From: Pseudonocardiaceae bacterium
Lineage (GTDB): Bacteria > Actinomycetota > Actinomycetes > Mycobacteriales > Pseudonocardiaceae
Length of the DNA: 64,000 nt
Direction: 5' to 3'
Assembly: GCA_009379815.1 (NCBI GenBank)
Contig: WHSY01000007.1
Location: 1-64,000, forward strand
A program made the translations under genes and the position numbers. How positions within the stretch are numbered: position 1 is the stretch's first letter; each line of letters starts with the position of its first letter. The notes under the pieces are model-generated. The model saw only the letters and a program-made list of their open reading frames with translations. It did not search any database and was not told the DNA's origin. Positions 9,534-54,446 of the stretch are shown here, piece after piece.

Positions 9534-9625
9534 GCCGTGAAGGGCACCTTCACTGCCTCCGACGCACTGAAGGTGCCCTTCACGGCAACTGAACCGACGC
9601 GAACTGCAGTGAAGGTGCCCTTCAC
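9534..9625. repeat. GTGAAGGGCACCTTCAC hairpin cluster
   Basis: GTGAAGGGCACCTTCAC at 9537-9553 is followed by two reverse-complement copies, at 9567-9583 (first base differs) and 9609-9625. The first two form a perfect 19-bp stem: GCCGTGAAGGGCACCTTCA (9534-9552) with its complement at 9568-9586, 15-nt loop. It sits between the ACAD and ligase genes. Related sequence recurs at 24781-24975 and, more decayed, near 21464 and 35271. It may attenuate or end transcription; no U-tract is present. Confidence 0.75.
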
Positions 9626-12882: not shown

Positions 12883-14895
12883 GTGATCAGAAAGCTGCTC
12901 GTTGCGAATCGTGGCGAGATCGCGTCGCGGGTCATCCGCACCGCCCGGGAGTGTGACATCGCCACCGTCGCGATGTTCTCCGATCCGGACGCCGACGCCC
13001 CGTTCGTGACCGAGGCCGACGAGGCGGTCGCACTGCCCGGCGCCGGCCCGGCCGACACCTACCTGCGCGCCGACCTGCTCGTCGCGGCCGCGCTGGCCAC
13101 CGGCGCCGACGCGGTACACCCTGGTTACGGGTTCCTCGCCGAGAACGCCGGCTTCGCCCGCGCCTGCGCCGAGGCGGGGCTGGTGTTCGTCGGGCCACCG
13201 GCAGCGGCGATCGAGTCGATGGGCTCGAAGATCACCGCCAAGGAGCTGATGTCGCGCGCCGGGGTGCCGGTGCTGCCCGGGGTCACCGTCGAGCCGTCCG
13301 ACGACCTGGCCGCCGCGGCCGCGTCGGTGGGCTTCCCGTTGCTGGTCAAGGCCTCTTTCGGCGGCGGCGGGCGCGGGATGCGGATCGTGCGGGCACCTGA
13401 CGAGCTGGCCGAGGCGGTGGCTGCTGCCCGGCGCGAGGCGGCGTCGGCGTTCGGTGACGGCACCGTCTTCCTGGAGCGCTACCTCACCGACCCGCGGCAC
13501 GTCGAGGTGCAGATCTTCGGTGACACCCACGGCACCGTGGTGCACCTGCACGAGCGGGAGTGCTCCATCCAGCGGCGGTACCAGAAGATCATCGAAGAGG
13601 CGCCGTCTCCTGCGGTCGACGGGTCACTGCGGGCCGAACTGGGCGCCGCGGCGGTCGCCGCAGGCAAGGCCATCGGCTACGTCGGCGCCGGCACCGTGGA
13701 GTTCGTGCTCGACGAGGCGTCCGGGTCCTTCTTCTTCCTCGAGGTCAACACCCGGCTGCAGGTCGAACACCCCGTCACCGAGCTCGTCACCGGGCTGGAC
13801 CTGGTGGCACTGCAGCTGCGCCTCGCCGACGGACAGCCGCTGCCGGAGCAGGCGACCACCGCAACGATCAATGGCCATGCCGTCGAGGCCCGGCTCTACG
13901 CCGAGGACGTGGCCGCCGGGTTCCTGCCGGCCAGCGGCACCCTCGCGCGGTTCTCGATCCCCGGGATTCCCGGTGTCCGGGTCGATGCGGGCGTCATGGA
14001 CGGCTCGGTGGTCAGCCCGCACTACGACCCGATGCTCGCCAAGGTCATCGCGCACGGCGCCACCCGCGACGAGGCCTGCCGCCGGCTGGCCCGTGCACTG
14101 GCCGAGGCGCAGCTGCACGGCGTGACCACCAACCGCGACCTGCTCGTCGGGGTGCTGCGCGAGCCCGGGTTCCGGGCCGGCCACACCGACACCGGCTACC
14201 TGACCCGCCACGACCCGGTGGCGCTCGGTGCGCCGCCTGCCGGCTCCGCGGTGGTCGGGCTGCACGCCGTCGCGGCCGCGTTGGCCGACCAGGCGGCCCG
14301 CCGCGCGCACGCCCCGGTGCTGGCGACGCTGCCCTCGGGCTGGCGCAACGTGCCCAGCGAGCACCAGCACGCCGTCTTCGCCCACGGTGACGAGCACATC
14401 GAGGTCCGCTACGCGCTCGTGAGTGGCGATGCGAGCCATGGCTCGCATCGCCACTCACGAGCTGTCCGGGCCGAGATCGACGGTGTCGCCCTGGACGGTG
14501 TGGCGGCGCGGCAACTGACCCCGGAGCGGGTGGACCTCGATGTGGCCGGGGTGCGGCGATCGATCCGGGTGCACCGTGTCGACGAGGTGGCCTATGTGGA
14601 CAGCGCGCTCGGCGCGACGACGCTGGTCGAGCTGCCCCGGTTCCCCGAACCCGGGACGTCGACACCGCCGGGGTCGCTGCTGGCCCCGATGCCCGGGACG
14701 GTGGTACGGGTCGCGGTCAGCGCGGGCGAGCACGTCGCCGCCGGTGCGGCGGTGGTCGTGCTCGAGGCGATGAAGATGGAGCACACCGTGTCTGCCCCGC
14801 ACGACGGGGTCGTCAGCGAGGTCAACACCGAGGTGGGCCGCACGGTCGACACCGGCACCGTGCTGGCCGTCGTCGATGAAGAGGAGGGGGAGTGA
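12883..14895 (+). CDS. acyl-CoA carboxylase, biotin carboxylase + BCCP (alpha) subunit
   Basis: 670-aa alpha subunit. The biotin carboxylase part covers about residues 1-450 (start LLVANRGEIASRVIRTA, ATP-grasp loop GGGGRGM near 160, EVNTRLQVEHPVTE at 287). A linking BT-type region follows, then a C-terminal biotinyl domain with EAMKMEHT, biotinylated Lys631. GTG at 12883 begins MIRKLLVANRGE. Residues 511-527 are encoded by a perfect 48-bp palindrome (14415-14462) that looks like an inserted repeat, read in frame. Partner of the beta subunit at 11235; together they carboxylate an enoyl-CoA such as methylcrotonyl- or geranyl-CoA. Confidence 0.95.
   Translation: MIRKLLVANRGEIASRVIRTARECDIATVAMFSDPDADAPFVTEADEAVALPGAGPADTYLRADLLVAAALATGADAVHPGYGFLAENAGFARACAEAGLVFVGPPAAAIESMGSKITAKELMSRAGVPVLPGVTVEPSDDLAAAAASVGFPLLVKASFGGGGRGMRIVRAPDELAEAVAAARREAASAFGDGTVFLERYLTDPRHVEVQIFGDTHGTVVHLHERECSIQRRYQKIIEEAPSPAVDGSLRAELGAAAVAAGKAIGYVGAGTVEFVLDEASGSFFFLEVNTRLQVEHPVTELVTGLDLVALQLRLADGQPLPEQATTATINGHAVEARLYAEDVAAGFLPASGTLARFSIPGIPGVRVDAGVMDGSVVSPHYDPMLAKVIAHGATRDEACRRLARALAEAQLHGVTTNRDLLVGVLREPGFRAGHTDTGYLTRHDPVALGAPPAGSAVVGLHAVAAALADQAARRAHAPVLATLPSGWRNVPSEHQHAVFAHGDEHIEVRYALVSGDASHGSHRHSRAVRAEIDGVALDGVAARQLTPERVDLDVAGVRRSIRVHRVDEVAYVDSALGATTLVELPRFPEPGTSTPPGSLLAPMPGTVVRVAVSAGEHVAAGAAVVVLEAMKMEHTVSAPHDGVVSEVNTEVGRTVDTGTVLAVVDEEEGE
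14415..14462. repeat. perfect 48-bp palindrome inside the biotin carboxylase gene
   Basis: Every base from 14415 pairs with its mirror up to 14462, with the centre at CCATGG (14436-14441); each arm is 24 nt and there is no spacer. Outer arm begins GCTCGTGAGTGGCGATGCGA. Its length is 16 codons, so it does not break the frame and adds a Ser/His/Gly-rich segment. A degenerate copy lies between genes at 54394-54446, so this is a dispersed repeat that entered, or was born in, a coding region. Confidence 0.9.
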
Positions 14896-24000: not shown

Positions 24001-24765
24001 GTGAGCGACAGCGTGCTGACCGAGTTCGACGACGGCGTCATGGTGATCACGATCAACCGGCCGGAGGCCCGCAACGCCGTCGATCGCGCGGTGGCAGAGG
24101 CGATCGCCGCCGCCGTCGACGAACTCGAGGCGCGGCAGGACGCGGTGCTCGGCATCCTGACGGGTGCGGGCGGCACCTTCTGCGCGGGCATGGACCTCAA
24201 GGCCTTCGCCCGCGGCGAGGTGCCGAGCATCGAGGGGCGCGGCTTCGCCGGTCTCACCGAACGCCCGGCGACGAAGCCGCTGCTGGCTGCGGTCGAGGGT
24301 TGGGCTCTGGCCGGTGGGTGCGAGCTCGCGCTCAGTGCCGACCTCATCGTGGCCGCCCGCGACGCCAAGTTCGGCCTGCCGGAGGTCAAGCGCGGCTTGG
24401 TGGCGGCCGCCGGTGGCCTGCTGCGGCTGCCCAAGACGTTGCCCTACCAGCTGGCCATGGAGGCCGCGCTCACCGGTGACCCGCTGACCGCCGAGATCGC
24501 CCACCAGCACGGGCTCGTCAACACGCTGACCGAGCCGGGTGGCGCGCTGGACGGTGCCCGGGCGCTGGCCGCCCGCATCGCGGTGAACGGCCCGCTCGCG
24601 GTCCGGGTCACCAAGCAGATCGTCGCCGCGGCCGTCGGGTGGACCGACGCCGAGGCCTACACCTCCCAGTCCGCGCTGGCCGCCCCGGTGTTCCGCTCCG
24701 CCGATGCCCAGGAGGGCGCGCGAGCCTTCGCCGAGAAGCGCGCTCCAGTCTGGCGGGGGGAGTGA
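24001..24765 (+). CDS. enoyl-CoA hydratase (both catalytic Glu present)
   Basis: 254 aa. The only crotonase in the window with both hydratase glutamates: Glu108 in GGCELALSAD and Glu128 in LPEVKRG, 20 residues apart like Glu144 and Glu164 of rat enoyl-CoA hydratase. It should therefore hydrate trans-2-enoyl-CoA. GTG at 24001 follows AAAGGGGACGAC. It stands alone on the plus strand, with two regulatory dyads in its promoter and a repeat cluster after its stop, so it is probably a single-gene transcript that serves several pathways. Confidence 0.93.
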   Translation: MSDSVLTEFDDGVMVITINRPEARNAVDRAVAEAIAAAVDELEARQDAVLGILTGAGGTFCAGMDLKAFARGEVPSIEGRGFAGLTERPATKPLLAAVEGWALAGGCELALSADLIVAARDAKFGLPEVKRGLVAAAGGLLRLPKTLPYQLAMEAALTGDPLTAEIAHQHGLVNTLTEPGGALDGARALAARIAVNGPLAVRVTKQIVAAAVGWTDAEAYTSQSALAAPVFRSADAQEGARAFAEKRAPVWRGE

Positions 24766-24780
24766 GGACGGGCCAGCCGG

Positions 24781-24975
24781 CTCCCCAGTCGCCGTGAAGG
24801 GCCCCGTCGCTGCGACTACCCGCTCCCCAGTCGCCGTGAAGGGCCCCGTCGCTGCGACTACCCGCTCCCCAGTCGCCGTGAAGGGCCCCGTCGCTGCGAC
24901 TACCCGCTCCCCAGTCGCCGTGAAGGGCACCGTCACTGCGTCGGAGGCCGTGAGAGGGCCCTTCGCGGCGTTCCC
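24781..24975. repeat. 42-bp tandem repeat and GTGAAGGGCACC-type hairpins
   Basis: A 42-bp unit starting CTCCCCAGTCGCCGTGAAGG is repeated exactly at 24781, 24823 and 24865, with a fourth partial unit from 24907 that diverges into GTGAAGGGCACCGTCACTGC. An AGGGCCCTT-centred half-site follows (about 24953-24963). It fills the gap between two convergent genes (crotonase and CoA ligase). The unit belongs to the same repeat family as 9534-9625. Confidence 0.85.
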
Positions 24976-53749: not shown

Positions 53750-54388
53750 GTGATGATACCGACGCACTCCGGGCGCCCCGTCCGGCGGACCGGGCCGATC
53801 CCGATCGCCGGTCGGCGGGCGACCGGCGAGGAGATCATCCTCGCCGCATCCATCGAGGTCATGTCCGAGCACGGTTACCACGGGACCTCGGTGCGCGACA
53901 TCGCGGAGCGGGCGGGCCTGAGCCCGGCGGCGCTGTATCACCACTTCTCGTCCAAGCACGACGTGCTGGCGACGATCATGGACCGGGGCATCGAGGAGCT
54001 GCTGAGCCGGACCCGCACGGCGTTGCAGTCGGCGGGGGACGACCCCCCCGACCGGCTGCGGGCTCTCGTCGCGGTCCACGTGCTGTTTCACCTGGAGGAC
54101 CAGCGCGGGACCCTGCTCGGCACCAGCGAGGTGCGCGGGTTGGAGGAACCGGTCCGCAGCGAGCACCTCGCCAAGCGCCAGCAGCAGCAACGGATGTTCG
54201 ACGGTGTGGTCAGCGACGGGACGCAGCGACGTGCCTTCCGGACCGAGTACCCGCAAGAGGCGTCCAGGGCGGTGGTCGTGATGTGCACCGGAGTCGCCAG
54301 CTGGTACCACCCGGAGGGTCCGCTGACCCGCGAGGAGATCGCGCAGCGCTACCAGGTGCTGGCTCTCGACCTGGTCGGTGCGGCCTAG
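53750..54388 (+). CDS. TetR-family regulator
   Basis: 212 aa. Helix-turn-helix at about residues 25-75: EEIILAASIEVMSEHGYHGTS, RDIAERAGLSPAALYHHFSSKHDVL. The C-terminal part contains WYHPEGPLTREEIAQRY, like the TetR at 35364. ATG or GTG in the first bases after the cyclase stop (GTGATGATACCG) starts it. It probably senses an acyl-CoA and controls the ACAD-cyclase-TetR group or the following operon. Confidence 0.92.
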   Translation: MMIPTHSGRPVRRTGPIPIAGRRATGEEIILAASIEVMSEHGYHGTSVRDIAERAGLSPAALYHHFSSKHDVLATIMDRGIEELLSRTRTALQSAGDDPPDRLRALVAVHVLFHLEDQRGTLLGTSEVRGLEEPVRSEHLAKRQQQQRMFDGVVSDGTQRRAFRTEYPQEASRAVVVMCTGVASWYHPEGPLTREEIAQRYQVLALDLVGAA

Positions 54389-54393
54389 CTGCC

Positions 54394-54446
54394 CGTGAGT
54401 GGCCGTGCTGGCCGGCGGCGAGCCAGGGCTCGCATCGCCACTCACG
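54394..54446. repeat. degenerate copy of the 48-bp palindrome
   Basis: Outer arms CGTGAGTGGC (54394-54403) and GCCACTCACG (54437-54446) and inner arms GCGAGCC (54418-54424) and GGCTCGC (54427-54433) match the palindrome at 14415-14462. The right half is nearly identical; the left half has diverged. It lies between TetR and kinase genes. Confidence 0.8.

Follow-up and report, generated by a model that had tools for sequence, protein, structure and literature searches.

A perfect palindrome in a carboxylase gene as a probable stray copy of a REP-like family of gene-end hairpins in Pseudonocardiaceae

The gene at 12883–14895 on the + strand of the analysed stretch of Pseudonocardiaceae DNA (64,000 nucleotides, referred to below as the window) is an open reading frame of 670 codons coding for the alpha subunit of an acyl-CoA carboxylase, with the ORF of the beta subunit lying upstream. 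The product, assigned from the ORF, its homologues and a PDB match, comprises a biotin carboxylase and a biotinyl domain, and its nearest solved relative is the methylcrotonyl-CoA carboxylase alpha subunit (3u9s). The gene hosts a palindrome at 14415–14462 (no strand assigned), characterised by sequence inspection and RNA folding, which has two 24-nt arms and no spacer. The segment is its own reverse complement over all 48 bases, the next outward pair being mismatched, and base composition alone (GC 0.709) would give ~1e-8 perfect palindromes with 24-bp arms per 64 kb. The first-pass annotation had described exactly this, a perfect 48-bp palindrome read in frame within the biotin carboxylase gene, and the description holds. 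The palindrome is out of codon register: its first base is the third of codon 511 and its last base the second of codon 527. Its inner 40 bp (14419–14458, no strand assigned, GTGAGTGGC...GCCACTCAC) form the core shared with the dispersed copies considered below; together with the next bases this core codes for V-S-G-D-A-S-H-G-S-H-R-H-S-R (residues 513–526). The predicted fold of the palindrome as RNA has an energy of -63.4 kcal/mol as compared with -33.3 (sd 3.75) in 200 shuffles (z -8.0).

The window protein was aligned with 29 homologues, that is with every locus found in 41 genomes except the window's own. None of the 29 carries the residues VSGDASHGSHRHS. A gap of exactly 11 columns is located at the insertion in 23 of them (L027–L049), and gaps of other lengths are found in the remaining six. 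The first-pass annotation had proposed to check whether the insert is missing from orthologues. It is missing from these homologues, and the opposite outcome, the same residues in all orthologues, is not observed. As the homologues are only ~48–66% identical to the window protein and none of them is a close orthologue, the boundaries and the age of the insertion are not readable from the alignment. If translated, the element would add ~11 net residues. It is located in a variable linker and read in the only frame of the element that commonly lacks stop codons, which suggests that the protein tolerates it. The first-pass annotation had supposed that the mRNA hairpin could alter the alpha-to-beta subunit ratio. 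Since the beta-subunit ORF is upstream of alpha, a putative effect of the hairpin would fall most directly on the alpha subunit and the downstream genes.

The repeat is dispersed over the source genome. A 19-mer proposed in the first-pass annotation for a genome search gave 24 matches, against none for the reversed control. The pattern GTGAGTGNC...GNCACTCAC has 80 matches in the 5.44 Mb of this genome, 73 of them exactly 40 bp long. From the flanks fetched around the listed matches 74 distinct copies were recovered by a script: 65 of 40 bp and 9 of 50–57 bp, the longer ones mostly with ~10–12 additional central bases. The script allowed one mismatch per end, and the copies examined in the source genome and in genomes G325 and G097 (74, 28 and 29, respectively) are not identical to the sets of pattern matches (80, 179 and 95); hits with core arm symmetry below 0.6 were removed before the recovered copies and their gene-end positions were counted. 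The ends of the core are near-invariant across genera (GTGAGTG...CACTCAC) and its length is usually 40 bp, while the interior is genome-specific. In 378 of the tallied flanks the triplet adjoining the core is GTC, CTC, CCT or CCC, so that the full unit measures ~46–48 bp. The listed flanks of family copies showed, on inspection by eye, no direct repeats of the kind that a MITE would leave as target-site duplication. One 40-bp palindrome of the source genome (L092:3259–3298) has the same GTGAGTG ends and a wholly different interior.

A second copy of the family in the window, identified by sequence comparison, occupies 51 bp at 54395–54445 (no strand assigned). The degenerate intergenic copy that had been reported at 54394–54446 is thus real, with slightly shifted borders. 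It is asymmetric (arm symmetry 64%) and has the usual gene-end position, beginning 6 nt past the TAG stop codon at 54386–54388. Asymmetric forms of 50–51 bp, with one arm like that of the 40-bp form, are present in both species of the genus (L113 and L116 in G001, as well as 54395–54445). Such forms could be the ancestral state that gave rise to the perfect 40-bp copies.

Assemblies can yield perfect palindromes, and the source genome is in 733 contigs. Nevertheless, an assembly artefact or a chance palindrome is hardly conceivable as an explanation, given the chance expectation stated above, the many independent copies with different flanks and the presence of the family in named genomes, two of which are titled complete. 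For the family as a whole this explanation is refuted.

The surroundings of the copies were examined with genes called by a home-made codon-usage caller, for which the window served as training set. One or more genes end at 58 of the 74 copies in the source genome, 23 of 28 in G325 and 25 of 29 in G097, whereas random positions in the same loci fall at 3' ends in 62, 65 and 90 cases per 1000 (6–9%). When the 40-bp copies of four sets (the source genome, G325, G097 and 80 named loci) are taken together, 172 of the 212 scorable ones are at gene 3' ends, called genes contain 7, and the other 33 have neither position; 5 of the 217 copies, near locus ends, were left unscored. The copies often lie between convergent genes. 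In 76 of the 241 gene ends adjoining copies (32%) the stop codon is the TGA within the element's own GTGAGTG, and the next commonest distance from the stop codon is 3–8 nt. The palindrome had been taken for a dispersed repeat that inhabits coding sequence: its dispersion is confirmed, but coding sequence is not its habitat. Rickettsia palindromic elements are known for their in-gene habit, with in-frame insertion into genes for unrelated proteins, and the element studied here is likewise met in the carboxylase and in other genes. However, with most copies being gene-end hairpins and only the above few inside genes, the analogy with Rickettsia drawn in the first-pass annotation fits a side effect and not the family. 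RPE-1 is, moreover, a longer insertion (PMC3733652).

Nine candidates for copies within genes or in C-terminal tails were read, and all of them use the same frame beginning with V-S. Besides the carboxylase alpha subunit (14415–14462), in-gene candidates are located in genes for an acetoacetyl-CoA ligase (L013) and an Emb-like arabinosyltransferase (L007) and in the linker of a CobI-CobJ fusion (L175). C-terminal tails are formed by copies in a flavin monooxygenase-like protein (L010), cytidine deaminase (L063), CydD (L129) and a dihydroorotate dehydrogenase-like protein (L211). The last candidate (L107), a degenerate 52-bp match followed in the ORF by an energy-coupling-factor ATPase domain, may not be a true copy. 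Comparison of the acetoacetyl-CoA ligase with PDB entries gives, by our count, a net gain of ~6 residues at the element site, and the PDB relatives of the arabinosyltransferase-like protein are too distant to place its insertion. Among 434 arm readings the V-S frame is open in 358, the third frame in 179 and the TGA frame in one. Stop codons thus explain most of the bias, the V-S frame alone being free of them as a rule; the frame shared by the in-gene copies needs no special selection, and frame selection as a separate signal was discarded. The palindrome at 14415–14462 is best explained as a rare in-gene copy of a gene-end hairpin family.

The position of the copies resembles that of canonical intrinsic terminators, in which a stable hairpin also stands just 3' of the stop codon. 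The canonical U-tract after the stem is lacking here: five or more T in the following seven positions occur after only 4 of the 241 gene-sense ends, and the canonical U-tract terminator was therefore ruled out. In Streptomyces clavuligerus, stem-loops without a U-tract form a large group among the transcript ends that have been mapped, structured ends lacking a U-rich tract amounting to 353 of 535 (PMC8269248). These I-shaped (HS-U-lack) ends and the present copies are alike in that a strong GC-rich 3' stem-loop without a U-tract is found in a high-GC actinobacterium; the passages of PMC8269248 considered do not present the Streptomyces ends as a single family of repeats, while the present ones belong to a single family with ends common across genera. 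The element, transcribed from either side, would form a long hairpin in the RNA, and this hairpin would end the mRNA or protect its 3' end without a U-tract, either as an I-shaped terminator or as a Rho-linked end.

An I-shaped hairpin of this type is expected to take the terminator slot of genes, and this is observed at one gene, purL. The first 90 nt past the purL stop codon were surveyed in 80 Amycolatopsis genomes, of which 79 were assessable (G142 was left out because of a contig end). A hairpin score of at least 9 was obtained in 69 of the 79 slots and in 32 of 400 windows placed at random in these loci. The GTGAGTG family palindrome accounts for 15 of the 69 hairpins, 14 by rule and one, mislabelled by the rule, by eye (G128). 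By rule, three slots hold a GTGAAGG palindrome, four a hairpin with a U-tract and the remainder other hairpins; CCTGTCCACA-like arms were recognised by eye in eight of these other hairpins (G091, G093, G110, G114, G137, G153, G163 and G164). Four of the 10 slots without a scored hairpin retain a GTGAGTG or CACTCAC motif, which in three of the four (G160, G092 and G087) resembles a single surviving arm. In G109 a GTGAAGG palindrome is visible by eye, with a loop over the limit of the finder, and this slot was kept among those without a hairpin. That the palindrome is exchanged with unrelated hairpins at purL, the one gene surveyed, is the strongest argument for its acting as a terminator or otherwise at transcript 3' ends, and such a role of the gene-end hairpin is probable from these sequence comparisons.

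The same data bear on two other explanations. A selfish repeat devoid of function, for which gene ends are the sole harmless place, would account for the rare in-gene copies, for the patchy copy number within genera and for the lack of one G325 copy (L136:7248) at the orthologous position in its relative G276. Neutrality, though, predicts neither other strong hairpins in the same slot of other species nor the element's own stop codon in about a third of the ends, and we regard this explanation as unlikely. Another possibility is that the palindrome is bound as DNA by a sequence-specific nucleoid, segregation or recombination protein that reads the GTGAGTG ends. The almost invariant ends, the prevailing length and mispairs devoid of an RNA-strand bias (see below) agree with this, but a protein reading only the ends would not need co-varying interiors, many relatives are without any copy, and the palindrome is replaced by unrelated hairpins at purL. 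It is improbable that the family is such a site.

The two arms of the element change together. Pairing at variable positions exceeds that in all of 1000 right-arm shuffles in each of the four sets. In the source genome the effect is modest, with a pairing of 0.838 against a shuffle mean of 0.783; likewise, 15 of the 52 distinct copies are perfect, which is a modest excess over the shuffle mean of 8.3 (maximum 17). Changes from the consensus arm affect one arm only in 62 cases and both arms in 33. In 324 stem-pair comparisons, which share sequences and hence do not count independent events, there are 35 double changes that are still paired, 34 one-sided changes and 3 unpaired double changes, and 9.3 double changes would be expected if the arms were independent. 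At four G325 junctions most copies are shared by the relatives G276, G299 and G304; the copy L136:4735 is only a remnant in G304. Within the source genus the junction L093:2001 has a copy in G001 as well (L119), with a different interior. L119 could be aligned with L093, and the G001 locus L110, seemingly orthologous to L010, gave no alignment at the element and was dropped.

The first-pass annotation had read the perfection of the palindrome as a sign of recent insertion or active maintenance, and the coordinated changes of the arms support the latter. Selection on RNA through G-U intermediates was considered as the force behind it. The gene-sense mispairs of the 40-bp copies comprise 42 G-U, 36 A-C and 35 others; with no strand asymmetry (42 vs 36) and hence no G-U excess, RNA selection is not favoured as the force that keeps the symmetry. 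Template switching, which is documented to create and keep hairpins and can fix stems (PMC8794818), would copy one arm onto the other during replication within the palindrome and so keep near-perfect pairing. The quasipalindrome correction described in PMC8794818 (see also PMC7202029) likewise accounts for two-arm changes without G-U intermediates; it is a mutational mechanism, whereas the present subject is an element family for which the switching is deduced. We infer that template switching fits the upkeep of symmetry better than RNA selection does and that the palindromy is kept partly in this way.

Relatives of the repeat (at least one match) were found in 155 of 390 Pseudonocardiaceae genomes, the copy number being patchy within genera and ranging from 0 to 179. 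In an even sample of the order a 40-bp match is present in 17 of 397 genomes, only three of them outside the source family and all three from one other family. A scan of named genomes gave at least 80 loci, mostly from Pseudonocardia and Amycolatopsis among the matches listed, which also include Rhodococcus koreensis, R. opacus, R. wratislaviensis, Saccharopolyspora, Qaidamihabitans, an Actinophytocola MAG, MAGs labelled Pseudonocardiales and one Planctomycetota MAG. The family thus consists of dispersed gene-end hairpins of Pseudonocardiaceae and some Rhodococcus. The palindrome in the Planctomycetota MAG (L228:7355–7394) has the same ends followed by a T run; it may be due to chance, misbinning or transfer. 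No report of a GTGAGTG...CACTCAC family was found in the open-access PMC literature, which most subscription papers lie outside of.

Being a small high-copy palindrome that is mainly intergenic and close to 3' ends, the element corresponds in this to what is called a REP. The GTAG/CGTC REPs have much in common with the present family, being short high-copy palindromes, mostly located between convergent or tandem genes and near stop codons, which supply TAG stops from their GTAG ends and have some copies in frame within ORFs (PMC3733652). The distribution of the present family is, besides, patchy between species of one genus. It could therefore be supposed that the family is a classic REP mobilised by RAYT, a Y1 tyrosine transposase, with gene ends as the places where insertions survive and termination as an incidental property. 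However, the Y1_Tnp domain (PF01797) is absent from the source genome and from its genus mate, and it occurs in 2 of the 57 genomes with at least 10 matches (one of them a weak fragment) as compared with 61 of the 333 others. There is no GTAG or CGTC tag either; the family differs from GTAG/CGTC REPs by GTGAGTG/CACTCAC ends, a TGA stop, a near-perfect 40-bp palindrome and an interior that turns over between genomes. RAYT-driven membership was rejected on the PF01797 counts, and mobilisation by RAYT has little probability in our estimation. Rhodococcus, Amycolatopsis and Pseudonocardia are not mentioned in the main text of PMC3733652. With no tag and Y1_Tnp nearly absent, the family is termed REP-like, without a RAYT transposase, and not REP.

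Probably, we are dealing with a REP-like family of bidirectional terminator hairpins without U-tracts, the symmetry of which would be kept partly by template switching, and the carboxylase copy would be a tolerated in-gene stray. The family would give a sequence handle on U-tract-less transcription ends in high-GC actinobacteria, antibiotic producers included. Its REP-like habits (gene ends, stop supply and in-frame strays) in the absence of RAYT are relevant to the question of whether a transposase is required for repeats of this kind. The numerous copies within a genome and the orthologous slots can be compared, so that the family lends itself to testing template switching as a force that keeps hairpins paired. 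A broader and quite tentative proposal is that gene ends of Pseudonocardiaceae may be served by exchangeable palindromic terminator cassettes of the GTGAGTG, GTGAAGG and CCTGTCCACAG types, which would need no dedicated transposase for their spread and would restore their symmetry through template switching during replication. If this were true, terminators would be a self-copying and self-correcting class of repeats, occasionally landing in frame and lengthening proteins.

Several minor observations concern the neighbourhood of the family. A search of eight loci against Rfam gave three matches, all to microRNA families and far under the gathering scores, which are taken as chance. A near match to TGTCCACAG is located within 20 nt on one side of 25 of the 74 source-genome copies (e.g. 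L010, L064, L086 and L102). This motif resembles an actinobacterial DnaA box, and in some Amycolatopsis it builds gene-end hairpins of its own. Another palindrome family of fixed length in the source genome, GCCGTGAAGG...CCTTCACGGC, has 10 copies of 53 bp, one of them in the window at 9534–9586, and a related GTGAAGG palindrome occupies the purL slot in some Amycolatopsis. At 24735–24940 the window contains a tandem array with a 42-bp period, which includes GCCGTGAAGGGCCCCGTCGCTGCG, i.e. half of the GTGAAGG palindrome.
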